Origin: a virus
Reading direction: 5' to 3' (one strand)
IMG/VR virus record: IMGVR_UViG_3300017917_003797
Span: 1-61,069 of that record
DNA length: 61,069 bases
The notes beneath the pieces were generated by a model. The model searched no databases. It saw nothing but the letters and a program-made list of their open reading frames with translations, and had not been told where the DNA came from. The position numbers were made by a program, and so were the translations under genes. Shown here piece after piece: positions 12,897-47,474 of the stretch. Numbering within the stretch: position 1 is the first letter of the stretch; the number at the start of each line of letters is the position of its first letter.

Positions 12897-14642
12897 TTAA
12901 TGGAATTTTTTATTGTTAGGGATAACCATAAGAGGATTTTTTAACGTGTTGTTTAGCTGAGTTAGTAATGCTACCATAGATTTCATGTTGTCGCTCATCT
13001 CTTTGTTAATTTTATCCTGATCCTCTTTTTTTGTTTTATCCTCAGATTCTTTTTGCGCTTCCGAAGTGGTTTTCACATCGTTTGGCTCTTCTGTTTTTTT
13101 GTCCGTTGTATTATTTTCTGTAGTTGTAGTTGTAGTTGTTTTATTATCTTCCTTATTGTCTTCTTTTTTTGTGTTATCCGGCGTGCTTACACTAGATAAG
13201 TTTTGTGTCTGTGTTTCTTTTATAGGCGTAGAAGTGGTAGAAGTTTCAGATTTTTTATCAGTATTTCCTGAAACTTTTTCTTCTAATTTGGTTTCTTTCT
13301 TTTCTGTCTTAGATTTATTATCACTTTTCCCTTTGTCTCCACCAGATTCTCCCTCCTTAGGTTTAACAAATCCCATTTCTTCTAGATTTTTGTCTACCTG
13401 TGCACTCCCTGTAGTGATTCCTTTCCCTTTCCCTTTATCTCCTTCTCCTTTATCTCCTTCACCCTCTTTAGCAGCCGGAGCTTTTATACCTAGCATGTCC
13501 AATATACCTTTTACTGGTTCGCTGAACGTAGGTTCTTTTTCTTTTCCTTTACTCTTTCCTTTTGTTCCTTCGTCTTTTTTTCCTTCTACCGTTCCCGTAG
13601 ATTCTTTCTTTTCCTCTGGTTTTTTTTCCTCCAGCTTTTGCTCTGCGGTTTTAACTTCCGGTTCTTTTTTTTCTTCTGTCTTTTTGGGTTCTTCTGGTGT
13701 TGGAGTTGCGGTAGGTGCTTCTTTAGGCTGATCTACTTTCGCATCTTTATTTTCAGATGCTAGTTCTTTTTTTGGCTCCTCCGCTTTCTTTTCTTCTAAC
13801 TTTTGTTCTTCTGTTTTAGTAGCAGTCTCTTCTTTTTTTGCTTCCTCTCCTGCCTTTTTTATTACATCCTCCGCTTTTACTCCCTGATCCTTCTCAGAAA
13901 GTACTAGCATATGTTTATCATAGGATTCTGCCGCTTTTTTAACATAATCGTTATCGAACCCTTCGCCTTTTAATATCTTAGCGAATGCTGCTAATATAGC
14001 TCTATTCTCGTCAGTATACAATTTACTAGCATATTGACTAGCTAACGTTGAATCCTTCTCATTAAAATAAGAAATAATTTTCTCCAAGTTACCCTCTAGA
14101 TATTCGAATTTAAATTTTTCATTTTTCTTAATTTTAGAATCAAAGTCATCCTTAACTTCCTCATATAGGGAGAAATCTTTTATACTGCCTAAACCTAAAC
14201 TTTCTATTATTTCTGTTACTTTTCCGTTTTTAAGCTTATTTGCATTCTCTATTCTTTGTTCAGCAGTTTTTTTAGACATATCGAATATCTCTTTACCGTC
14301 TAAAGCTTCTCCTTTGTCTATCCTCTTTTCTATTTCCCTACTAGGTGAACCTGTATCTGCAGATGATGACCTGTAGTATATAGATTTAGGATCTATATCT
14401 TTGCTTAGTTCCTTTAAGTTTTTTTCGTAAGATGAATAAAAGAAATCTTTAGCTGCTTCTATTACAGTATTAGCAGCTTTCATTTTCTCGGCAGCATCAC
14501 TGTCAACAACTTTTCCTTGACTCTCCTTTAACTGCTGATTAAATTTAGCTCTGTCAAAGGCTCCTTCCTCGGATTTAAAAATAGGATACCCAGATGTTCC
14601 CGATGCTCCTGATGTTCCCGATGTTCCTGATGTTTCTGCCAA
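12897..14642 (-). CDS. Low-complexity, Lys/Glu-rich protein with (GTSG)n start (581 aa)
   Basis: Residues 3-18 are GTS/GAS repeats. Residues 20-270 are a helical, more ordered domain. Residues of about 270-540 are strongly biased to K, E, T, P and S and look disordered, with repeated blocks such as KTEEQKLEEKK and KTAEQKLEEKK. The C-terminus ends in a short ordered segment (MVALLTQLNNTLKNPLMVIP). It lies just downstream of the gp26-like chaperone gene, where the tail tape-measure or hub proteins of other phages are found. It has no long hydrophobic or heptad tape-like pattern, so the function is left open. Confidence 0.7.
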   Translation of the reverse strand: MAETSGTSGTSGASGTSGYPIFKSEEGAFDRAKFNQQLKESQGKVVDSDAAEKMKAANTVIEAAKDFFYSSYEKNLKELSKDIDPKSIYYRSSSADTGSPSREIEKRIDKGEALDGKEIFDMSKKTAEQRIENANKLKNGKVTEIIESLGLGSIKDFSLYEEVKDDFDSKIKKNEKFKFEYLEGNLEKIISYFNEKDSTLASQYASKLYTDENRAILAAFAKILKGEGFDNDYVKKAAESYDKHMLVLSEKDQGVKAEDVIKKAGEEAKKEETATKTEEQKLEEKKAEEPKKELASENKDAKVDQPKEAPTATPTPEEPKKTEEKKEPEVKTAEQKLEEKKPEEKKESTGTVEGKKDEGTKGKSKGKEKEPTFSEPVKGILDMLGIKAPAAKEGEGDKGEGDKGKGKGITTGSAQVDKNLEEMGFVKPKEGESGGDKGKSDNKSKTEKKETKLEEKVSGNTDKKSETSTTSTPIKETQTQNLSSVSTPDNTKKEDNKEDNKTTTTTTTENNTTDKKTEEPNDVKTTSEAQKESEDKTKKEDQDKINKEMSDNMKSMVALLTQLNNTLKNPLMVIPNNKKFH

Positions 14643-14678: not shown

Positions 14679-14910
14679 TTATCTTTTTGGCTTTGAAAAT
14701 GCAAATGCTTCTACTAAGTCACCTTGCTCGTTTTTCTTATTTTCTCTTTCTATTTTTTCGTTTAATTTATCTATAAACAATTGATACTCATAGAAAGGTA
14801 ATTCTTCTAAATGATCTATAGACAATTTAAATTCATCCCAAAGTCTAAATTTAATATCAAAGTAGTTGGCTAAAGATATCTGAAATAACGAAAAGAGATC
14901 TGTACCCTCC
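14679..14910 (-). CDS. Frameshifted C-terminal extension of the gp26-like protein
   Basis: This frame continues the gp26-like protein after a +1 shift at 14910-14916, adding 76 residues (EGTDLFSLFQ to KPKR). It contains LPFYEYQLFIDKLNEKIE, a helical ending typical of tail-assembly chaperones. An ATG exists at 14984 in this frame (a 101-aa ORF), but its first 25 residues overlap the conserved zinc-ribbon part of the other frame and look non-biological. I therefore treat the frame as the second half of a fusion of about 404 residues spanning 14679-15894. Confidence 0.65.
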
Positions 14911-15894
14911 GGGAAAGGAAATCTCTGCTGTGACCTCCCCCTCACAGCTTTCACATTTACTATTAATTCTTGATTTTGTTGCAAAGTTTATCTTCTCTGT
15001 TATTTGATCTGCAATAGAGAATTGTAGAGGAGACCATTCTGAGGAAGCTCTCTCGTATTGGTCATATACAGATTCATCAAGTCCTCTCCAATCTGGTATT
15101 ATAAAAGAAGCAACTTTAGCAAAGCTTTCATCGAAGCTTTTTCCTTTTCTTCTTTTATCTGATAGAATCTTTCTACAAATTGTTGTAACTCCTACAGTGG
15201 GAATATAAAGATCCATTTCTGGACTTCCGTCTTTAGGAATAAATTTAAAAGAATAGCTTTCTCTGCTATATCTTTTAAGTATCTCAGGATCTACAACAAA
15301 GCTATCTAAAAGATTAGATCTTAGCTCTATCATATCTGGTACATTACAATCAGGTTTTGTACAATTCTTTTCTACTGGAAGAAGTATTTTGTTTTCTCCT
15401 CTCAGGAAGGTCATATCACGAATAGACATTATAATATAAAATCTATCCTCATACCAAAGATCGTATGATTCTAAAAATCCTCCATTCCATCTTATTTTCA
15501 TACACTTTGAAAGAATGGTATTTAGCTTATCATCTAAATCTATTCTATCATCTTCGTCTACTGTGGAAAATTGTCTGATTTCTTTAACTCCTGCTGCTTT
15601 TATTGCAATTTCAAATCCTTCTGGATATCCAAATCCTTTTGATGGGAGATTCTCTACTGGAATATTTTTCCAGTCGTTCTCCATACCCATAGGAGTTCTT
15701 GTAACGTTTACCTTTCCTAGATTATTCGCTTGGTTTTGAACTGGTTGAGGATTTTGATTTGGATTAGCTTCCTTATCAATCCATTCAGGTATTGTATAAG
15801 ATCCAACATCTGGATCCTGATCATACTGGAATTTAGATTCCGCTTCTTTTCTGCTAAGATGCTTTAGCAATTCATCGTCCATGTTTTGTTCCAT
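14857..15894 (-). CDS. T4 gp26-like baseplate/tail assembly protein, zero-frame product (345 aa)
   Basis: Residues 1-85 are a flexible N-terminus. Residues of about 85-325 resemble the T4 baseplate family typified by gp26 (SKCMKIRWNGGF, then an SIRDMTFLRGENKI segment, and CTKPDCN). A CxxC pair near residues 318-321 (CESCEGEV) suggests a zinc knuckle. In the zero frame the protein stops 17 residues after the likely slippery site, with the unconvincing tail GGYRSLFVISDIFSQLL. T4 gp26 and gp51 are assembly factors for the baseplate hub. Assignment to this family is from remembered motifs and is moderate. Confidence 0.7.
   Translation of the reverse strand: MEQNMDDELLKHLSRKEAESKFQYDQDPDVGSYTIPEWIDKEANPNQNPQPVQNQANNLGKVNVTRTPMGMENDWKNIPVENLPSKGFGYPEGFEIAIKAAGVKEIRQFSTVDEDDRIDLDDKLNTILSKCMKIRWNGGFLESYDLWYEDRFYIIMSIRDMTFLRGENKILLPVEKNCTKPDCNVPDMIELRSNLLDSFVVDPEILKRYSRESYSFKFIPKDGSPEMDLYIPTVGVTTICRKILSDKRRKGKSFDESFAKVASFIIPDWRGLDESVYDQYERASSEWSPLQFSIADQITEKINFATKSRINSKCESCEGEVTAEISFPGGYRSLFVISDIFSQLL
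14907..14916 (-). promoter_or_regulatory. Candidate +1 ribosomal frameshift site
   Basis: The minus strand reads TTT-CCC-GGA in the zero frame (codons 327-329). Slippage of tRNA-Pro from CCC to the overlapping CCG moves into the +1 frame and reads CCG-GAG-GGT, continuing SFP-EGTDLF. C-rich CCC-N sites are known +1 shift sites. A simple sequencing error would look the same. Confidence 0.55.
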
Positions 15895-15902
15895 ACTATT
15901 TC

Positions 15903-16130
15903 TTATATCTCTTTTACTTTTTCTTTTGACTTTAGTTTCTTATTTGCTGACAAAAAGAAGTAAAAACCAAAGAAAAGCCCCGAAAGGAAGTAAAAAATTG
16001 CTACTGTATGCCAGTAGGAATTTGTCCATTTCATTATCGTTGCAAAAAGGATATCGAATCCGAAGGGATTGAAGAAAGTTGCTAAAACTAAACAAACTGA
16101 AGCTATTCTTGTTCTTCTTTTCTGATTCAC
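15903..16130 (-). CDS. Small two-helix membrane protein (75 aa)
   Basis: Two hydrophobic helices are visible, about residues 10-32 (ASVCLVLATFFNPFG) and 42-62 (AIFYFLSGLFFGFYFFL), with a basic C-terminus (KKLKSKEKVK). The frame opens at GTG 16130. A better-placed ATG at 16143 reads a different frame without this membrane pattern. Holin or envelope functions are possible but not shown. Confidence 0.5.
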   Translation of the reverse strand: MNQKRRTRIASVCLVLATFFNPFGFDILFATIMKWTNSYWHTVAIFYFLSGLFFGFYFFLSANKKLKSKEKVKEI

Positions 16131-16232: not shown

Positions 16233-16811
16233 TTAATTAAAAACGTCTTCGAAATAATCCGCTCTGAAAGATAGAGCAATTTTATAAGGTGTAGTACCGT
16301 TTGTGTAATCAAGATCTAAAGACTTAATCTGATCAACAGGAAAGCAATTTAACAATTTAATTCTTCTGAATACATCTCCTTGTTTATTAAATACAGATAT
16401 TAGAATATAAGTACCTCCTGCATAAGTAGATTTAATACCAGTAGCACCTGTTAGTGGATTATAAACTAGATCTGACCATTGACGTAATGTTTTAAAAACA
16501 TAGTTACTGTTGTTATCATTAAGGTTAGTTTCAAACTCAATTCTAACCTTAACTCCAGTATCGTCAATAGCACCAGCTGCATATCTTCTTCTAGAAAATT
16601 TGTACCTTTGTTCAGTTATTCCTGGATTTTTATCAATTGTTAAACCTGAAACGGATAAAACGTTTTCTACAAGGAGAGTTCTACCTCCGTTACCTTGTTC
16701 GTTTGCAACTCCAGCTGGAGGTTGTATAATAACCTCAAATTGGTTAAGGTATACCGGTTCGTACAATTGTACCGCCGCCTTTGCTGATGTAAAATGTGGT
16801 AATCCTGCCAT
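16233..16811 (-). CDS. Tail tube protein, gp19 family, copy B (192 aa)
   Basis: It has the gp19-family pattern: an N-terminal MAGLPHFTS, then LNQFEVIIQPP, VSGLTIDKNPG, and a C-terminal segment FRRIKLLNCFPVDQI with a final LSFRADYFEDVF. These hexamerise to form the inner tube of contractile tails. It is a close paralogue of 16822-17394, and the two are separated by 10 bases. T4 has only one gp19 gene, so a second tube-like protein is notable. It may form the tube end or be a baseplate-proximal ring. Confidence 0.88.
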   Translation of the reverse strand: MAGLPHFTSAKAAVQLYEPVYLNQFEVIIQPPAGVANEQGNGGRTLLVENVLSVSGLTIDKNPGITEQRYKFSRRRYAAGAIDDTGVKVRIEFETNLNDNNSNYVFKTLRQWSDLVYNPLTGATGIKSTYAGGTYILISVFNKQGDVFRRIKLLNCFPVDQIKSLDLDYTNGTTPYKIALSFRADYFEDVFN

Positions 16812-16821
16812 TTTTTAATTT

Positions 16822-17394
16822 TTATATAAACACATCATCAAAATAATCAACTGCCCATTGTAGAGTCAATTTGAATATGGAAGTTTGTGTGTAGTTCAAT
16901 GCCATTTCATTGATCGGTGTCATCGGGAAGCAATCTCTAAGATTTATTTTTCTAAATATATCTCCTTGTTTATTGAAGACGTTTATTAAAACATTTCCAG
17001 TGTAATCTTTTTTAAGACCCATAGCACCTGTTAGTGGATTATAAATTAAATCTGACCATTGGCGTAGTGTTTTAAAAACATACATAGAGTTGTTCTCGTT
17101 TAGGTTAACCTCAAATTCCATATCGACATCTAAACCTGTTTTTGCAGGTGCAGCTCCGGCATAATATCTTTTAGCAAATTTGTATTGCTGTGTTATTTCA
17201 CCGGGGTTCTGATCAACCTGTAATCCAGATACTCTTGTTACTTGTTCTAATAATATATTAGAGCTTCCTGGATTTCCAGCTTGAACCGGTATAGCAGCAG
17301 GAGGTGTAATAATAACCTCAAACTGGTTAAGGAAAACCGGTTCGAATTTGTTAATCGAAGCTTTCGAACTTGTATAATGTGGTAAGCCTGCCAT
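16822..17394 (-). CDS. Tail tube protein, gp19 family, copy A (190 aa)
   Basis: It shows the same family pattern as copy B: MAGLPHYTS, LNQFEVIITPP, VSGLQVDQNPG, FRKINLRDCFPMTPI and a C-terminal LQWAVDYFDDVF. It directly follows the sheath gene, as in T4 (18 then 19), so copy A is the more likely main tube subunit. The internal block SMYVFKTLRQWSDLIYNPLT is almost identical in both copies, showing a recent or strongly constrained duplication. Confidence 0.9.
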   Translation of the reverse strand: MAGLPHYTSSKASINKFEPVFLNQFEVIITPPAAIPVQAGNPGSSNILLEQVTRVSGLQVDQNPGEITQQYKFAKRYYAGAAPAKTGLDVDMEFEVNLNENNSMYVFKTLRQWSDLIYNPLTGAMGLKKDYTGNVLINVFNKQGDIFRKINLRDCFPMTPINEMALNYTQTSIFKLTLQWAVDYFDDVFI

Positions 17395-17439: not shown

Positions 17440-20400
17440 TTAGCTAAATTGGATAAATCCTCCTGAAGCGATACCTCCTGTTCTAGTAACTGTCATTCTA
17501 TTGATGAACTTGTGAATACCTCTTGCAGGTTCGATTATTACATCGATAATACCGATATTCTGATCGATAATTGCAGGAGTGTTATTCGAAGAGTCCATAA
17601 TAGTTAAGTAGTTATAGATACCTCCAACAGATCTTACTCCAGTTAAGTAGTTGTCTACTAATGTTTTAATCTCAAGTCTAACATTGTCTTCATTGAAATC
17701 AAATACGTAGTTAGAAAGTATTTCTTCAATTGCACTTTCTACTGTAATTAGTAAGTCTCTTACATGTAAGTTATTGAATGCGGAGTTTGTTCTTTGGTAG
17801 CTTGTTTGGTTACCATAGATAACTATACCAACACCTCTCTTACGAATTATAGGGTTAACTCCAAATGGCTCTAGATATTCTCTATCTTGTAAGTCGAAGT
17901 CGTATTCTAATCCTACTAAGTTGTTAGCAGAGATAATACCTCTTTTAAGACCAGCTACGATTGAATAAGGTTCACCTGTAATAAACTTACGAATGAAGTT
18001 ATTAGAAACGTAAGGTGAAGGTGGTACATCCAAATTCTTGTTGTTTTCTCTAATTGTTAAGAAAGGAGCAAAGAATCCTGAGAATTTAGCTCCTAGATCC
18101 TCGTCTGGTAAAGAGAAAGTAAACGAAGGATTTAAGCTTAAGTTACCTCCGTCTGCAATGTATCTAGCTTGTAAAAGTGGAGCTGGATCTGTTGCAGTTG
18201 GTGCAGAAGTAAATCTAGGATCAATTGATTCAGAGAACTTCTTCATAGAAGGTAAGTTACAAATTGCTAAACATTTTTGTCTGTTCTTAGCAAGTTTAGT
18301 AAGCTGATATTTACAGTTTGGTTGTATACCTCCGTCAAATGTATCAACGATATATCTAAACGTAATTACATCCGTATCTGCTAATGTTCTAGCAAGATTA
18401 GTATTGTAAAGAACGTCTAAGATTTCATTCATTCTTGTGTCTGTTCCATTAGGCATAGAAGCCGCCTTGATATCAGCACCTGGAAGATAAGTAAAATTAA
18501 ATGTTCTTACAAATTCTTGGATATTTTTAAATTTCCAAACTCTTGTAGTAGTTCCTGGGTATAACTTAATAGGTCTTTCAGTTTTAACTTGTACTGTGTA
18601 AACTCCAGGGGATGTTGCAGAAGCTACAGTTTTAACCTCTAATACTCTGGTTAATCTAGATTGTAGATTCTCAGTTAAAGGATTGTCATAGATCTGAAGG
18701 TCAGTAGATACTAATAGATCTCCAACTTTTATTCCAGAAGAATCTGCAACTGCTGTTGTTAATTCTACTACGTTAGGTTGAAGCTGAGTTATGATGTCTA
18801 CAAAGTCACTTATGTTACCAGCTGTAGATACGATATTAAAGCTTTCCCCTGTAGTTTGGTTAGTACCAATAGGAAGGGAGCTAACATACGTAGTATCCCA
18901 AGTAGCAATGGATTCTGGTGTTGTAAATGTATCATCAGCAAACGCTCTACAAACTAGGATATTGTAACCGTCTCTATCTACATTTACTTCAAATTTTAGG
19001 TATTGCAGAAGAGTTCCTGTGTCATCCTTCCAGTCTATATCACCGTCCCCAATATTTCCTTTTACCCAATCTCTATACATAGCAGAGTTTTCATATGCTA
19101 GATATGAATCTGTACCTACAGGGATATCTGGTGAGAAGTAAACATCATCATTATCGAAGTAATCTGGATTACCTATTTGGTAAGCAGCAACCGAGCTCTT
19201 ATTAGTTATGTCGTAAGGCTCAACATAAGTTGTTGAAGGAGTAGATCCTACTAGAGGATGTTTTAATTTCAATCTAACCTGTGTTCTAACGCCAGATGGC
19301 AATGTAGAATTAGTTATTGTTTTAGCTTCTGTTATTCTAAGCTTAACTAAATCACCTTCGTAGAATCCAAGATATCCAGGAGTTGGAAGGTTTGAAGTAA
19401 CTTTACCAAGTACCCATTTAGCTGCAGGAGCATCGTTAGAGATTGAAACGAAATCATCTAATGTCGTGATTTGGTCATCGTGTAAAGTAGGTGAAGTAAA
19501 TAATGTATCTATATAAATAGCTCCGCCATCTCTAGCAGCAGGATTATATGTGTCCCAAAGTGATGTAGGAATACCAGCATCTCCTGTTGCATTGTATAAA
19601 GAATCTAAAAGAAGAGTACCAGTTTCAGGTAAAAGATCCATACCTGGGTTAGAAGGTGAAAGATTATCCTGTATCTCAGTACCTCCGGTTGATCCGTCTA
19701 TATTCTTATAATATGTGTAATCTGCAAATAGATTTTGGTTATAAGATAAGAAATTAAGATTTTTAGGAACTACTGTAATATCAGCATCTGGACCTATCTC
19801 ATCAATTAGGTGGTGACCAACTAAATCAAATACTGATGAGTTATCTACTAGATCGTCTAAAGCTTCTTCATTAACAGCACAGAAAATACCAGTAGTTGGT
19901 GTTTGGTTATTAATCAACGTCTGGATGTATCTTAGAGTACCGTTTTGATCCGTAAAGTTAGGAATTATAGTACCAGTAACGGTTAATACTATATTAACTC
20001 CATCAAGGGCTAAGAAATTATCTATTTGGGATTTAATAAATCCTTTAGATGTAAAGTATTGACTGTAAACTGGATCATTAGCTAAAGCTTGATAATCTGT
20101 CCAGTTACCACTAATTGCTATAACATCAATAAACCAATCTGAAAGATAATCGTATTGGTTCATATAAGAAGGAACGTTATCCGGGCCAAAATATTCTCTA
20201 GCTGTTATGTCGAATCCTCTTAAAGGGAATCTAGAATCTAAAGATTTTCTTACTATGATACTTACAGGACCCTGACCAATATTAACTATGCTGAATAATT
20301 TTCTTGAATCAGGCTGAGCACCAGAATTATCTTCAGTAGCTAATAAATATGTTGTATCAGGGAACCAGAATTTCTCCTTATTATAATAAGATGATAATAA

Positions 20401-20841
20401 TTTATCTTGTTTTGTTAAAGGATCTGAATATCCACCTGTAGCATTAGCTCCATTTTGCTCTTCTGTATCCATAGAGAATGCTCTATATCTAGCTACATCT
20501 GCTCCAGAAGCATAATCAGGATCACCATTCTGATCTACAGTATTGTTTAGAAGTCTTAGGTTAAGAGCAAATATAGGTCCGCTTTGTAGACAAACCAATG
20601 CAGATCTGTGGAAGAAAGATCCTTTCTTCTCCATAGTCTTTTCTATTCCTCCAAATACTGATTGGAAAGTCGTAATATCCGGACAATAAACTGGTGTATT
20701 GAAAGGTCCAACGCTAGAATAACCTACCACCAATCTAATCGTGGAAGGATTGATAATAATGTTTTCACTAGCATCAAATTCTAATGTATAAACACCAGAT
20801 GCTTTAAATTGGGATAAATCAAGTTTGACTTGTTTTGCCAT
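17440..20841 (-). CDS. Contractile tail sheath protein, gp18-like (1133 aa)
   Basis: The C-terminal 250 residues follow the conserved sheath core: YSIVAGLKRGIISANNLVGLEY, then FGVNPIIRKRGVGIVIYGNQT, then NNLHVRDLLITVESAIEEIL, ending in FINRMTVTRTGG near the terminus. The N-terminus has the usual strand-exchange type start and a PVYCPD region. At 1133 residues it is far longer than T4 gp18 (659), because of large inserted beta-rich domains between about residues 230 and 850, probably surface decorations. It polymerises around the tube and contracts during infection. Neighbours gp17 and gp19 confirm the order. Confidence 0.93.
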   Translation of the reverse strand: MAKQVKLDLSQFKASGVYTLEFDASENIIINPSTIRLVVGYSSVGPFNTPVYCPDITTFQSVFGGIEKTMEKKGSFFHRSALVCLQSGPIFALNLRLLNNTVDQNGDPDYASGADVARYRAFSMDTEEQNGANATGGYSDPLTKQDKLLSSYYNKEKFWFPDTTYLLATEDNSGAQPDSRKLFSIVNIGQGPVSIIVRKSLDSRFPLRGFDITAREYFGPDNVPSYMNQYDYLSDWFIDVIAISGNWTDYQALANDPVYSQYFTSKGFIKSQIDNFLALDGVNIVLTVTGTIIPNFTDQNGTLRYIQTLINNQTPTTGIFCAVNEEALDDLVDNSSVFDLVGHHLIDEIGPDADITVVPKNLNFLSYNQNLFADYTYYKNIDGSTGGTEIQDNLSPSNPGMDLLPETGTLLLDSLYNATGDAGIPTSLWDTYNPAARDGGAIYIDTLFTSPTLHDDQITTLDDFVSISNDAPAAKWVLGKVTSNLPTPGYLGFYEGDLVKLRITEAKTITNSTLPSGVRTQVRLKLKHPLVGSTPSTTYVEPYDITNKSSVAAYQIGNPDYFDNDDVYFSPDIPVGTDSYLAYENSAMYRDWVKGNIGDGDIDWKDDTGTLLQYLKFEVNVDRDGYNILVCRAFADDTFTTPESIATWDTTYVSSLPIGTNQTTGESFNIVSTAGNISDFVDIITQLQPNVVELTTAVADSSGIKVGDLLVSTDLQIYDNPLTENLQSRLTRVLEVKTVASATSPGVYTVQVKTERPIKLYPGTTTRVWKFKNIQEFVRTFNFTYLPGADIKAASMPNGTDTRMNEILDVLYNTNLARTLADTDVITFRYIVDTFDGGIQPNCKYQLTKLAKNRQKCLAICNLPSMKKFSESIDPRFTSAPTATDPAPLLQARYIADGGNLSLNPSFTFSLPDEDLGAKFSGFFAPFLTIRENNKNLDVPPSPYVSNNFIRKFITGEPYSIVAGLKRGIISANNLVGLEYDFDLQDREYLEPFGVNPIIRKRGVGIVIYGNQTSYQRTNSAFNNLHVRDLLITVESAIEEILSNYVFDFNEDNVRLEIKTLVDNYLTGVRSVGGIYNYLTIMDSSNNTPAIIDQNIGIIDVIIEPARGIHKFINRMTVTRTGGIASGGFIQFS

Positions 20842-44045: not shown

Positions 44046-44432
44046 TTATTCTTCCTGCTCTTCTTCTTCCTCTTCCTCTATTATTTCCAATTCTGATATT
44101 ATACCTTCGGTGGTTTCTCCTTCTATTTCATCCCATGAATATTCAACTTTGGTTGAATCCCATAAAGAATTTCTATCAGTGGATATTTTTCCCTCCGCTA
44201 AAAGTTTTATCTCCTCTGATGTGAATTGTCCTTCGGCCATTTCTAAGGCTTCCGTGTAATCAGAAATACCTTCAAAGCTTATTCCGTTCATTACATTTAA
44301 AAAAGATCCTAAAGCAAAGATAGAAGCTTCATTTCTATCTTTCCCTATTCCTGTAACTGTAAAATTAACGTCGGCATCGGGATTAACATGAGCTACCTTC
44401 ATTGTAACTCTGCTCATTTTTTGTGGTTCCAT
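44046..44432 (-). CDS. Hypothetical protein with very acidic C-terminus (128 aa)
   Basis: Starts at 44432 (MEPQKM) or 44417 (MSRVTMKVAHVNPD). The first 60 residues are an alpha/beta segment (MKVAHVNPDADVNFTVTGIG). The last 15 are almost all Glu. A TTTG/TTATAAAA promoter-like sequence lies upstream. No family recognised. Confidence 0.65.
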   Translation of the reverse strand: MEPQKMSRVTMKVAHVNPDADVNFTVTGIGKDRNEASIFALGSFLNVMNGISFEGISDYTEALEMAEGQFTSEEIKLLAEGKISTDRNSLWDSTKVEYSWDEIEGETTEGIISELEIIEEEEEEEQEE

Positions 44433-44504
44433 AATAAAAATTTTATAATTTAGGTTGCAAAGTTAGAGATCAAATGAATAATAAGAAAATGATTTTTTTT
44501 AAAA

Positions 44505-45023
44505 TTACGTTAAAAATTTTAGTATTTTTTCTTTTACTCCTGATTGTTTTATCCCTTCGTTATAAGGTTTTGTTGTCATTACAAAGTTATCTAACTTAGA
44601 AAGATCCATATCATCTACAGCAACCCAATGAGTTACTTCCGGATGATCTTCCAACCATTTTTTAATCTCTATTACTCTGATAGCTTCGTATAGATTTTTC
44701 CATTTAAACATACCGAATCCGCCTTCATCGAAATCTTTCATATTAGGAGTAAGATCTATAGGAGGTTTAATACCTCTAGTAATATACATTTCTCTCATTT
44801 TCTCTAGATTACCCCAGTTTTTCCAATCTGAAGAAACTACTATCTCACATCCTGTCTCTTCTATAATATCGTTTAGTACCTTAACAGCTTTACTATCAAA
44901 ACTATCCATACGTATATCTAATGGAGTTTCAGGATTACTATCGTATCCTTTTTTCTTAAATCGGCCACCCCACTGCGGGGATAAGCAAATTACTCCATCA
45001 TGATCTAAGAATAATACTTTCAT
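44505..45023 (-). CDS. HAD-family phosphatase of the RNA-repair-associated (SAK) type (172 aa)
   Basis: I choose ATG 45023 (MKVLFLDHDGVI) because the longer frame runs into tRNA-Leu. Asp7 and Asp9 in LDHDGV are the HAD nucleophile and acid. The second motif is IVVSSDWKNW, and the later VAVDDMDLS is motif IV. The pattern FDSKAVKVLNDIIEETGCEIVVSS is typical of the small HAD family found in 'Swiss-army-knife' RNA repair proteins. It may remove phosphates from damaged RNA ends, but the substrate is not shown. It lies inside the tRNA island. Confidence 0.75.
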   Translation of the reverse strand: MKVLFLDHDGVICLSPQWGGRFKKKGYDSNPETPLDIRMDSFDSKAVKVLNDIIEETGCEIVVSSDWKNWGNLEKMREMYITRGIKPPIDLTPNMKDFDEGGFGMFKWKNLYEAIRVIEIKKWLEDHPEVTHWVAVDDMDLSKLDNFVMTTKPYNEGIKQSGVKEKILKFLT

Positions 45024-45043
45024 TTTTTTAATTATTAAATGTG

Positions 45044-45123
45044 TACCCTCGGAGAGACTCGAACTCTCACGCTTTCGCACTAGATCCTAAGTCTAGCGTG
45101 TCTACCAATTCCACCACGAGGGC
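45044..45123 (-). tRNA. tRNA-Leu(TAG)
   Basis: Class II tRNA. Acceptor GCCCTCG/CGAGGGT, anticodon loop CTTAGGA in stem CTAGA/TCTAG, variable hairpin, T-loop TTCGAGT, discriminator A. Reads CTA. Confidence 0.93.
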
Positions 45124-45126
45124 AAT

Positions 45127-45407
45127 TGAGGATGAGAAGGCCTCTGTGTTGTAGGATTATGTTCACTTCGGTTTAAGTCCTATTTGCTCAATTCCTTTCT
45201 CAAGGGAACAACACAATATTATTTGCTATCTATGAAGATAAGGCCAGAATTAACCGGTGATAGCTAGCCCCTTTGCCTCGTAATTTATCTCAGGACTTCA
45301 TCTATAGTGCAAGTGTACTTGCATTACCTCATAGAAGGTTCTTCTTATAAATGGGATCTCTCACACGGATTTGTGCCCTGAGGCCATATTATATACATCG
45401 AACTTTT
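45127..45407 (-). ncRNA. Large structured noncoding RNA (about 280 nt) before tRNA-Leu
   Basis: This 280-base gap has no gene but rich pairing on the minus strand. A long-range GGCCTC/GAGGCC helix closes it (45394-45389 with 45143-45138 region). Inside are GCTATC/GATAGC with a CCGG/CTGG cap, GTGTTGT/ACAACAC enclosing a CCTT-GAGA-AAGG hairpin with a GNRA-type loop, GCAAGT/ACTTGC, and CACA/TGTG. A boxA-like signal starts the transcript. I do not recognise RNase P, tmRNA or a group I intron core. A novel phage ncRNA is likely. Confidence 0.6.
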
Positions 45408-45426
45408 CGCAAATATTTCAAAGAAC
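45408..45426 (-). promoter_or_regulatory. boxA-like signal before the 280-nt RNA
   Basis: The minus strand reads GTTCTTTGAAATATTTGCG, immediately downstream of the first initiator tRNA. Best match of the set to rRNA-leader boxA plus flank. Confidence 0.6.
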
Positions 45427-45433
45427 TTATCAG

Positions 45434-45506
45434 TAGCGAGAGCAGGATTCGAACCTGCGTCCTCGGGTTATGAGCCCGCCGAGAAAACCATCTTCTCCAT
45501 CTCGCA
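45434..45506 (-). tRNA. Initiator tRNA-fMet(CAT), copy 1
   Basis: Initiator hallmarks are visible: T-T mismatch at 1-72, A11-T24 in the D-stem, and three G-C pairs next to the anticodon loop CTCATAA (GGG/CCC). Acceptor otherwise GCGAGA/TCTCGC, T-loop TTCGAAT. Confidence 0.9.
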
Positions 45507-45511
45507 ATATA

Positions 45512-45614
45512 GTTGACTTGTCAGTACTCGAAGCTGACCCCTGCGTCCCCTTTCCCCGCCCTCATGTGGACTGTCAGTACTCCGTTCTGCTGTGCACCCC
45601 TACACCATAGCCAA
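45512..45614 (-). tRNA. Non-canonical tRNA-like gene, 103 nt
   Basis: The acceptor TTGGCTA pairs with AAGTCAA (6 of 7), the D-arm is GTGT-AGGGGT-GCAC, and the T-arm is TCAGC-TTCGAGT-ACTGA. Between D and T arms lie about 50 G-rich bases instead of the usual 25-40, without a clear anticodon stem; CATGAG occurs there. It may be a decayed, intron-bearing or specialised tRNA. Confidence 0.5.
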
Positions 45615-45663
45615 TCGGTAGTTTCGAACCTACCAGTCTCAAGTTAATTACTCTTGAGGTTTG
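45615..45663 (-). other. T-arm-like hairpin and spacer
   Basis: The minus strand holds CTCAAG/CTTGAG and GGTAG-GTTCGAAA-CTACC hairpins. It resembles the 3' part of a tRNA whose 5' half is missing; the presumptive acceptor overlaps the next tRNA-like gene. Confidence 0.4.
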
Positions 45664-45759
45664 TAGCGATAGAGGGATTCGAACCTTTGAAAGAATCTCA
45701 TGAAATCCTTTCCTCTGCTCCGATGCTCATGACTGCAATCGGATCTCCAAGATATCGCC
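45664..45759 (-). tRNA. Non-canonical tRNA-like gene, 96 nt
   Basis: The acceptor GGCGATA pairs with TATCGCT and a T-loop TTCGAAT is present, but the T-stem is disrupted. Two internal hairpins, TCCGAT/ATCGGA and AAAGGATT/GATTCTTT, both carry TCATGA(G) in their loops. It does not fit a normal D/anticodon layout. Confidence 0.5.
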
Positions 45760-45765
45760 ATTTAG

Positions 45766-45838
45766 TAGCGGGGGCAGGACTCGAACCTGCGACCTCTGGG
45801 TTATGAGCCCAGCGAGCTACCAACCGCTCCACCCCACA
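45766..45838 (-). tRNA. Initiator tRNA-fMet(CAT), copy 2
   Basis: It has the same initiator hallmarks as copy 1: T-T mismatch at 1-72, A11-T24 in GAGC/GCTC, and CTGGG/CCCAG around loop CTCATAA. Acceptor GTGGGG/CCCCGC. Two initiator tRNAs in one phage is unusual. Confidence 0.9.
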
Positions 45839-45843
45839 ATGTG

Positions 45844-45917
45844 CGGTCCTAGCGGGACTCGAACCCGCGATCTCCGCCGTGACAGGGCGGCGTCCACTCC
45901 AACTGGACTGTAGGACC
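45844..45917 (-). tRNA. tRNA-Asp(GTC)
   Basis: Acceptor GGTCCTA/TAGGACC, anticodon loop CTGTCAC in stem CCGCC/GGCGG, T-loop TTCGAGT, discriminator G as usual for Asp. Confidence 0.94.
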
Positions 45918-45925
45918 TTAATTGG

Positions 45926-45997
45926 TAGTCCCTAGGGGAATCGAACCCCTCTTTCTAGGATGAAAACCTAACGTCCTAACCGATAGACGAAGGGACC
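45926..45997 (-). tRNA. tRNA-Glu(TTC)
   Basis: Acceptor GGTCCCT/AGGGACT, anticodon loop TTTTCAT in stem TTAGG/CCTAG, T-loop TTCGATT, discriminator A. First tRNA of this sub-array, directly after a boxA-like signal. Confidence 0.93.
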
Positions 45998-46012
45998 GTA
46001 ATTTCAAAGAGC
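45996..46012 (-). promoter_or_regulatory. boxA-like signal before tRNA-Glu
   Basis: The minus strand reads GCTCTTTGAAATTACGG, whose first 11 bases match the boxA consensus at nearly every place. It lies 10 bases past a terminator hairpin. Confidence 0.6.
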
Positions 46013-46021
46013 GTATAAAAC

Positions 46022-46050
46022 AAAAAAACCTCTGAGGTTATCAGAGGTTT
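46022..46050 (-). terminator. Hairpin terminator before the tRNA-Glu array
   Basis: AAACCTCTGA and TCAGAGGTTT form a 10-bp stem with a 5-base loop, followed by TTTTG on the minus strand. Confidence 0.8.
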
Positions 46051-46071
46051 AAATTATATCGTTATATTAAT

Positions 46072-46149
46072 TTAATTCCTCTGACACTTTCCAATATCCT
46101 CAAGACGATCGAGTTGAACCTCTGTTGCGATATTTAGAAATTGTTGCAT
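46072..46149 (-). CDS. Possible leader peptide (25 aa) before terminator and tRNA array
   Basis: ATG 46149 to TAA 46072 encodes MQQFLNIATEVQLDRLED then IGKCQRN. It lies 22 bases before the terminator stem and just after a promoter-like sequence. It could also be part of a small RNA. Confidence 0.4.
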   Translation of the reverse strand: MQQFLNIATEVQLDRLEDIGKCQRN

Positions 46150-46162
46150 TGAATTTTTCTTT

Positions 46163-46199
46163 GTTTTATTTATATACTCCAAATGTACAGAAAAGTTTC
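46163..46199 (-). promoter_or_regulatory. Promoter-like sequence before leader 2
   Basis: The minus strand reads GAAACTTTTCTGTACATTTG then GAGTATATAAAT. It matches the upstream regions of 33694-33951 and of the Y-RNA operon (GAAACTTTATCTAAATTT, TATATTA). Confidence 0.55.
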
Positions 46200-46228
46200 T
46201 TATTAAAAAAACGATTTCTGATTTTTTT

Positions 46229-46507
46229 TTACAAATTCCAAGCTGGATTAGCTACAATTAGCATACCTCCTTCAACTCTTGGTATTTGTTTAGTTGAATA
46301 AACATCATCATATTGGATTTGATCCGGATAGAACTTTTGTCCTTGGAACATGATGTAATTTTCTTCATCTTTACCTCTGTGACTCCATCCTTGACCTCTC
46401 ATTTGATCATGAGCAGCATCATCAACAGTAGGTCTACCAAAAAGAGAATCCCAGAATCCTTCGTTGATTTTAGATGTATTATCTTTATATTTCTTTAGAT
46501 GCTTCAT
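46229..46507 (-). CDS. Hypothetical protein with capsid-targeting-like leader (92 aa)
   Basis: The start MKHLKKYKDNTSKINEGF resembles the leader shared by packaged-protein candidates here. The rest is Gly/Asp/Tyr-rich without a known motif (WDSLFGRPTVDDAAHDQMRG, split by context). It lies between two tRNA sub-arrays. An internal head protein role is inferred from the leader. Confidence 0.65.
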   Translation of the reverse strand: MKHLKKYKDNTSKINEGFWDSLFGRPTVDDAAHDQMRGQGWSHRGKDEENYIMFQGQKFYPDQIQYDDVYSTKQIPRVEGGMLIVANPAWNL

Positions 46508-46547
46508 TTCTTTTTTTTTAATATATATATCTGTATATTAAAAAAAG

Positions 46548-46650
46548 TACAAGAGGCTGGACTTGAACCAGCATGAACTTTCGTTCTCGGGCATGCCACC
46601 CTAGCGTCTATCCATCGGACCATAAAAGATCTCGCTTCCGCCACTCTTAT
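46548..46650 (-). tRNA. Non-canonical class-II tRNA-like gene, 103 nt
   Basis: Acceptor ATAAGAG/CTCTTGT, T-arm GCTGG-TTCAAGT-CCAGC and variable hairpin GAAC-GAAA-GTTC are intact. The D region is Leu-like (TGGCGGAA then TGGATAGACGC) with about 21 extra bases inside the D-loop. The anticodon loop would be TGGCATG, lacking T33. Possibly a specialised or decayed Leu-type tRNA. Confidence 0.55.
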
Positions 46651-46653
46651 ATA

Positions 46654-46752
46654 TACAAGAGACAGGATTCGAACCTGCGGTCATCAGGGTATAGGACTAT
46701 GTTCCACCCTTCAGACTATTCATAGTTAGCATTTCCTCTCTGCCACTCTTGT
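46654..46752 (-). tRNA. Non-canonical class-II tRNA-like gene, 99 nt
   Basis: Acceptor ACAAGAG/CTCTTGT, a Ser-like D-arm GCAGAGAGGAAATGC and T-loop TTCGAAT are clear. The middle part is about 14 bases too long and offers competing stems, ACTATG/CATAGT and GGGT/ACCC, with no normal anticodon arm. Confidence 0.55.
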
Positions 46753-46757
46753 ATTTG

Positions 46758-46840
46758 TACCCGGAGAGGGACTTGAACCCTCACGACCAATGGCCAACGG
46801 ATTTTAAGTCCGTCTTGTCTACCTATTCCAACATCCGGGC
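46758..46840 (-). tRNA. tRNA-Leu(TAA)
   Basis: Class II tRNA. Acceptor GCCCGGA/TCCGGGT, anticodon loop CTTAAAA in stem ACGGA/TCCGT, T-loop TTCAAGT, discriminator A. Reads TTA. Confidence 0.93.
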
Positions 46841-46849
46841 AGACTTTTG

Positions 46850-46923
46850 TGGTCCCTCACGGGCTCGAACCGTGGACCTACTGATTATGAGTCAGTTGCT
46901 CTAACCTACTGAGCTAAGGGACC
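46850..46923 (-). tRNA. tRNA with CAT anticodon (elongator Met or Ile2)
   Basis: Acceptor GGTCCCT/AGGGACC fully paired, anticodon loop CTCATAA in stem ACTGA/TCAGT, T-loop TTCGAGC, discriminator A. It lacks initiator features. Because tRNA-Ile(TAT) follows, this one is more likely elongator Met. Confidence 0.9.
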
Positions 46924-46927
46924 TAAG

Positions 46928-47001
46928 TAGAGACTATGGGAGTCGAACCCATGACCGCATGCGTATAAGGCATGTGCTCTAACCAATTGAGCTAAGTCTC
47001 T
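46928..47001 (-). tRNA. tRNA-Ile(TAT)
   Basis: Acceptor AGAGACT/AGTCTCT, anticodon loop CTTATAC in stem CATGC/GCATG, T-loop TTCGACT, discriminator A. TAT anticodons for ATA codons are rare in bacteria, which normally use lysidine-CAT. Confidence 0.92.
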
Positions 47002-47006
47002 ATGGT

Positions 47007-47065
47007 CGGAGGGATTTAAAGATGTCATCCTTTAAATTCTTCACTGTTTGACCTTACAGCCTCCG
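47007..47065 (-). ncRNA. Small three-way-junction RNA between tRNA-Pro and tRNA-Ile
   Basis: CGGAGG pairs with CCTCCG at the ends. Inside are CTGT-8-ACAG and ATTTAAAG-8-CTTTAAAT hairpins (4 and 8 bp). It is 59 nt long, looks like a tRNA lacking one arm, and has no T-loop. Function unknown. Confidence 0.5.
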
Positions 47066-47068
47066 TAG

Positions 47069-47141
47069 TCGGGATACCAGGACTCGAACCTGGGGCCTCC
47101 TGGTCCCAAACCAGGCGATCTACCAACTGATCTACATCCCG
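47069..47141 (-). tRNA. tRNA-Pro(TGG)
   Basis: Acceptor CGGGATG/TATCCCG, anticodon loop TTTGGGA in stem CCTGG/CCAGG, T-loop TTCGAGT, discriminator A. Reads CCA. Confidence 0.94.
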
Positions 47142-47308
47142 AAATTGTATGTCTTTAAGTATCACCAGAACATACAAACTGTGCCAACCAACGATTTGGA
47201 GAATAAGTGTGCATATCATTAAAGAATACCGAGATATCCTACCTGTCTACGGTGTAGAGGCCTATTCCATCTTCGATCCATACCCAGCGCTAGATAGAGG
47301 GATTTGTG
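47142..47308 (-). ncRNA. Structured noncoding RNA between tRNA-Arg and tRNA-Pro
   Basis: No gene is seen in 167 bases. The minus strand has TGTATGT/ACATACA near its end and several weaker helices, and is richer in GC than nearby intergenic DNA. A TTATTCTCC segment recalls the Y-RNA-like 3' loop, but no GAAGCGG partner is found. Confidence 0.45.
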
Positions 47309-47382
47309 TGATCCGAGCAGGATTCGAACCTGCGACCTACTGCTTAGAAGGCAGTTGCTCTATCCAGCTGAGCTATCGGACC
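47309..47382 (-). tRNA. tRNA-Arg(TCT)
   Basis: Acceptor GGTCCGA/TCGGATC, anticodon loop CTTCTAA in stem ACTGC/GCAGT, T-loop TTCGAAT, discriminator A. Reads AGA. Confidence 0.94.
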
Positions 47383-47385
47383 AAT

Positions 47386-47474
47386 TGGCGGAGAGGGAGG
47401 GATTCGAACCCCCGGTAACTTTCGCTACGCCGGTTTTCAAGACCGGTGCATTAAACCAGCTCTGCCACCTCTCC
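47386..47474 (-). tRNA. tRNA-Ser(TGA)
   Basis: Class II tRNA. Acceptor GGAGAGG/CCTCTCC, anticodon loop CTTGAAA in stem CCGGT/ACCGG, long variable arm, T-loop TTCGAAT, discriminator G. The next bases are CCA (47388-47386), so the CCA end may be encoded here. Confidence 0.93.

Follow-up and report, generated by a model that had tools for sequence, protein, structure and literature searches.

In phage lambda and its long-tailed counterparts, the tail-assembly chaperones come from a single gene that directly follows the tail tube gene: gpG is its short product and gpGT a longer one extended by a 3' frameshift. Passages of the review by Atkins et al. (PMC5009743) describe this G-T frameshifting as conserved in long-tailed phages 'except T4'. 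In T4, gp26 and gp51 are both listed as hub-assembly chaperones (PMC3004832, Table 2). The gp51 of cyanophages and marine vibriophages lacks about the first 200 residues (Sullivan et al., PMC3037559); no mention of a frameshift was found in that paper, and no report of a gp26/gp51 frameshift was found in the literature searched, which did not cover subscription papers. Frameshifting in the +1 direction on a rare CCC is described for Listeria phages PSA, A118 and A500, in major capsid and tail genes where the CCC precedes a stop or a pseudoknot; the passages of PMC5009743 on these phages do not mention a 5' hairpin.

Here we analyze a gp26-like gene of the window, the whole 61,069-nt stretch of viral DNA under study (IMG/VR record IMGVR_UViG_3300017917_003797). 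As with lambda gpG/gpGT, a short and a longer product would be made from one gene located just downstream of tail-tube-like genes, here with homology to hub-assembly chaperones. In contrast to lambda, the protein family is a different one (PF12322), the shift would be +1 at TTT CCC rather than -1 at a heptamer, and the gene falls in the T4 superfamily, the exception named in the passages of PMC5009743. T4 gp26 and gp51 belong to the same PF12322 family, gp26 ending like the short form and gp51 having the same extension, but they are encoded by two divergent genes instead of one frameshifted gene. In cyanophages, HTVC008M, KVP40, phiM12 and phiW-14, a PF12322 gene is likewise followed by a short homologous tail ORF out of frame; there, however, the tail is in the -1 frame at T TTT TTY. 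The classical -1 heptamer X XXY YYZ is present in the cyanophage-type relatives and absent from the window and both clades described below. What the locus would share with the Listeria phages is +1 shifting at a rare CCC within a gene for phage structure or assembly; in the present case, there is a 5' hairpin. The locus departs from RF2-type +1 frameshifting, which combines a stop codon in the A site with a Shine-Dalgarno (SD) sequence ~3 nt ahead of the shift codon: here CCC takes the A site, and GGAGGU precedes TTT by 16 nt.

Results

Two overlapping frames at the gp26-like gene

The features of the locus are given below. The W clade is that of the window; the M clade comprises the kin of megaphages LR756502 and LR745206 and is ~26% identical to W.

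14857..15894, minus strand: zero-frame ORF of 345 aa (short form), gp26-like, with a C-terminal zinc knuckle
14679-14984, minus strand: 101-aa ORF in the +1 frame, overlapping the 345-aa ORF
14679..14915, minus strand: +1-frame extension of 78 codons and a stop, gp51-like helical tail (phrog_634)
14911..14916, minus strand: putative slip site TTT CCC, followed by G (14910); both codons are invariant in two clades
14890..14895, minus strand: CTT TTC, the point at which W-clade constraint leaves the zero frame for the +1 frame
14857..14859, minus strand: zero-frame stop TGA, conserved in position
14927..14948, minus strand: 5' hairpin GCUGUGA-[GGGGGAGG]-UCACAGC, with a 10-nt spacer to the slip site
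14933..14941, minus strand: SD-like GGGGGAGG in the hairpin loop
16233..17394, minus strand: two tandem tail-tube-like genes immediately upstream of the gp26-like gene
17440-20841: tail sheath gene, preceding the tube-like genes
47068..47141, minus strand: phage tRNA-Pro with anticodon UGG; no other Pro tRNA was found in the window

A first-pass annotation had proposed a +1 frameshift joining the gp26-like protein to a chaperone-type tail. Re-reading the ORFs in the window confirmed its coordinates, its frame direction and the length of the predicted fusion, and TTT-CCC-G stands at the junction as claimed (14916-14910, minus strand). When CCCG is read as a single Pro, translation across the junction gives one open frame of 404 aa. 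The presence of TTT CCC at the junction exceeds what chance would give: in frame, it is found at 2 of the 12,299 codon pairs in the minus-strand ORFs of the window. The 17-residue zero-frame tail, which had been called poor, is instead conserved up to an invariant Phe335 and dual-coded.

The tube-like paralogues (16233-16811 and 16822-17394) both match phrog_32623, and KVP40 likewise carries a duplicated tube-like gene directly before gp26. No tape measure gene was identified in the window, in which the two tube-like genes and the sheath gene are directly upstream of the gp26-like gene. A 75-aa membrane-protein-like ORF (15903-16130), which separates the gp26-like gene from the tube-like gene, has no PHROG match. 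A 581-aa low-complexity ORF rich in E, K and T (12897-14642), with a TTG start and TSGTSG repeats at its beginning, shares the frame of the +1 tail and matches no family. The window also carries 27 tRNA genes on the minus strand (40307-47474), four with a CAT anticodon and one for Pro (UGG).

Relationship to T4 gp26 and gp51

The zero-frame protein of the window gave no direct match to PF12322 or elsewhere in Pfam, and its PF12322 membership is based on relatives: L061, L056 and Sphingomonas phage PAU pass the gathering cut-off of PF12322 (T4_baseplate). An independent profile-profile comparison with T4-type sequences gave an E value of 8e-7 over 91 columns; a second comparison is not independent, as one of its alignments holds cyanophage rows. 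Modelled with AlphaFold, the short form reached a pLDDT of 78, and the Foldseek hits of this model are predicted hub or hub-assembly proteins of T4-like baseplates. The fusion, modelled from a single sequence, reached a pLDDT of 34. No credible relative was found among solved structures, by sequence or by fold.

The +1 tail of the window matches phrog_634, 'baseplate hub assembly catalyst' (E 3.5e-6), as a gp51-type tail should, and in a small search it matched a profile of the -1 tails and T4 gp51 with an E value of 4e-13. T4 gp26 (208 aa) and gp51 (249 aa) each match PF12322 over nearly the whole profile, and the extra C-terminal part of gp51 also matches phrog_634. The C-terminus of T4 gp26, ...GLKEFFELL, is much like the end of the short form. 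Through its relatives, the gene can probably be assigned to the T4 gp26/gp51 family (PF12322, phrog_150).

Conservation of the arrangement

A scan of viral contigs identified 54 homologues of the gp26-like gene, to which the M clade contributes 80 more loci. Every locus that reaches the junction has a zero-frame stop 17 codons past F-P together with an open +1 frame, and TTT CCC is present in all distinct CDSs (53 in W and 57 in M). A homologous tail in the +1 frame is also carried by PAU, Flavobacterium phage MaF61, Chryseobacterium phage MA9V, Tenacibaculum phage PTm1, the Lak phages and LR756500. These distant relatives include some without TTT CCC: the sequence is TTT CAA in LR756500 and Lak and TTT CGA in MaF61, and no clear equivalent was found in MA9V or PTm1. 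In LR756504, the site reads TAC CCC A. TAG reassignment is known in Lak phages; in Lak-B5, an in-frame TAG (about 5835) breaks the +1 tail at a position where Lak-C1 has GAA, and this TAG may reflect such reassignment. No DNA similarity of the window to phage isolates was found. Because the hosts named in the records of the distant relatives are mostly Bacteroidota, the host of the window phage is probably a member of this phylum.

Position of the probable frame change

Substitutions within the W clade are silent in the zero frame until position -37 relative to the stop; from position -30 onward, they are mostly silent in the +1 frame. Synonymous freedom lasts to the codon preceding TTT and ends at TTT CCC, independently in W and M. 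The Pro of TTT CCC is the sole codon-invariant Pro column (1 of 10 conserved in W and 1 of 8 in M), and the codon-invariant Phe columns are the slip-site Phe and those in the dual-coded overlap; at Phe and Pro codons conserved elsewhere in the gene, codon choice varies. A stop in the +1 frame is found 1-2 codons ahead of TTT CCC in L039, L124, L134, L144 and the M-clade loci L164, L168, L176 and others, the distance being a single codon in L124, L144 and several M-clade loci. In L134, the whole +1 ORF is devoid of ATG, GTG or TTG. In those loci, it is thus very unlikely that the +1 ORF has a start of its own, and the place of the shift has to be TTT or beyond.

An alternative site is CTT TTC (14890-14895), 21 nt downstream, where the shift could be by +1 on CUU U or by -2 with tRNA-Phe. 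This is precisely the point at which the +1 frame takes over the constraint from the zero frame in W, and many distant relatives retain YTT TTC. However, synonymous freedom has already gone at TTT CCC in both clades, the M clade constrains both frames from TTT CCC through the stop, and several lineages have +1-frame stops all the way to TTT CCC. Leu-Phe at CTT TTC are the last conserved residues of the zero frame, and dual coding is enough to account for the fixed CTT TTC; for the fixed CCC, there is no explanation other than the shift. A shift at CTT TTC is thus considered unlikely. Between the two sites, the zero frame of the W clade is under more constraint than the +1 frame, which is why TTT CCC is given as the putative slip point. 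By inspection, a -2 shift at TTT CCC was rejected, as no tRNA there re-pairs two bases back.

The +1 ORF might alternatively encode a protein of its own rather than part of a fusion, its translation starting internally or being coupled to the stop upstream. In favour of this, the ORF of the window contains an in-frame TTG further upstream (14984), GGAGG is found upstream, and the annotations of KVP40 and P-SSM2 begin 'gp51' at an ATG close to the gp26 stop. Against this stand the startless +1 ORF of L134 and the loci in which the +1 frame is closed one codon before the site; furthermore, T4 gp51 is a continuous chain with both parts, and a separate protein would leave the invariant TTT CCC unexplained. 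There is little chance that this explanation is correct. Transcriptional slippage would yield the same 404-aa fusion as ribosomal frameshifting, but the site (TTTCCC) has no long homopolymer run and its codon phase is conserved, making slippage highly improbable. A sequencing error or a decayed gene, suggested only by the broken frame itself, can practically be dismissed: over 100 distinct CDSs from two clades have the same arrangement under strong purifying constraint, the relatives read have no indel restoring a single frame, and the same stop and +1 ORF in independent IMG/VR contigs rule out an assembly error.

Combined, the comparative evidence makes it very likely that conserved, functional frameshifting takes place at the gp26-like gene, and the +1 frameshift proposed in the first-pass annotation is the best reading of the locus. 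The gene would thereby have what characterizes a G/GT-type gene, a short and a C-terminally extended product obtained by frameshifting near its 3' end.

A hairpin with a GGAGG loop upstream of the putative slip site

The hairpins of both clades carry GGAGG in the loop, rarely altered, and lie 10 nt before UUU. In the window, GGAGGU extends one base into the 3' arm. The codons of the loop region, GGG GAG GTC, are nearly invariant. M-clade hairpins have GUGUGG-type stems and a 9-nt loop, and the registers of the two clades are one base apart. Pairing is maintained at 100% of the hairpin cells in W (18 distinct sequences) and at 96.7% in M (35 distinct sequences), with compensatory changes on both sides of the stem, such as UA to CG; slid controls were far lower. 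Amino-acid constraint alone does not explain the hairpin: of the sequences recoded synonymously, 4% in W and 12% in M were at least as stable as the native one, so that support for the hairpin is good for W and moderate for M. No convincing conserved structure was found 3' of the slip site (alifold z -0.2 to -2.8, weak).

This hairpin, with GGAGG in its loop, is a probable stimulator of the frameshift. It could refold behind the ribosome, or the loop could pair with the 16S tail, which Bacteroidota ribosomes normally hide (PMC9976891). That an SD-like loop hairpin 10 nt 5' of UUU CCC constitutes a new kind of +1 stimulator is put forward tentatively. A phage bS21 was considered as partner of the SD-like loop and rejected, as none is encoded in the window or in two relatives of ~150 kb. 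The M-group megaphages LR756502.1 and LR745206.1 both carry a gene for ribosomal protein bS21 (PF01165). M-clade loci such as that of LR756502.1 also have an invariant zero-frame ATG 10 nt past GGAGGT and 3 nt before TTT CCC, which is a possible internal start.

Related genes in the T4 superfamily

A single PF12322 gene with a phrog_634 tail in the -1 frame is found in each of S-PM2, P-SSM2, HTVC008M, KVP40, phiM12 and phiW-14. A heptamer, T TTT TTC or T TTT TTT, is found in this group 7-13 nt ahead of the zero-frame stop; in cyanophage-type loci, T TTT TTC is at the same place in 66 of 66 distinct loci, while the Gly, Leu and Gln codons beside it vary. The tail of the -1 group is annotated as a separate gene, gp51, and it may alternatively be made by coupled re-initiation at a nearby ATG. 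In T4, the short and long forms correspond to two divergent paralogous genes, since gp26 and gp51 both match PF12322 and gp51 adds the phrog_634 part. Based on these comparisons, T4 appears to have replaced frameshifting by gene duplication, which would explain the 'except T4' of the review. In Campylobacter phage NCTC12673 (NC_015464, 15482-16794), consecutive ORFs contain at least two PF12322 pieces, which may stem from another, independent duplication of the T4 26/51 kind.

Discussion

We conclude with high confidence, from comparison of sequences, that the locus is best explained as a whole by a +1 frameshift at TTT CCC making a gp26-type short and a gp51-type long chaperone. The gene would yield two proteins with a common N-terminus: the majority of ribosomes would stop at 14857 to give the 345-aa short form, and a fraction would slip +1 at UUU CCC R to give the 404-aa long form. 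Slipping could follow a Phe route, in which peptidyl-tRNA-Phe moves from UUU to UUC during slow decoding of the rare CCC (36 of the 462 Pro codons in the main ORFs of the window), or a Pro route, in which tRNA-Pro(UGG) moves from CCC to CCR; both would give the identical ...EISF-P-EGTDLF... protein. The phage tRNA-Pro(UGG) could decode CCC and favour slipping from CCC to CCR. The TTT CAA of LR756500 and Lak fits the Phe route, and the TAC CCC A of LR756504 fits the Pro route.

The short form would be a gp26-type tail or hub-assembly chaperone and the long form its gp51-type version, with a helical extension recruiting another tail component. Judging from homology and gene position, the two forms most likely act in the manner of lambda G/GT, with many short and few long copies.

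The first-pass annotation regarded frameshifting as not usual in the T4 family. This view needs revision: relatives of T4 appear to frameshift, mostly by -1, and T4 itself has two paralogous genes instead. The comparison suggests that the T4 superfamily has G-T-type frameshifting, -1 in cyanophages, KVP40 and others and +1 in a Bacteroidota-type group, with a gene duplication in its place in T4. The hairpin with its SD-like loop is a new candidate +1 stimulator and, if this is true, the ratio of short to long chaperone would be tied to the anti-SD state of the ribosome. The locus has an unusual reach because it would place the T4 superfamily inside the rule that it was thought to break.
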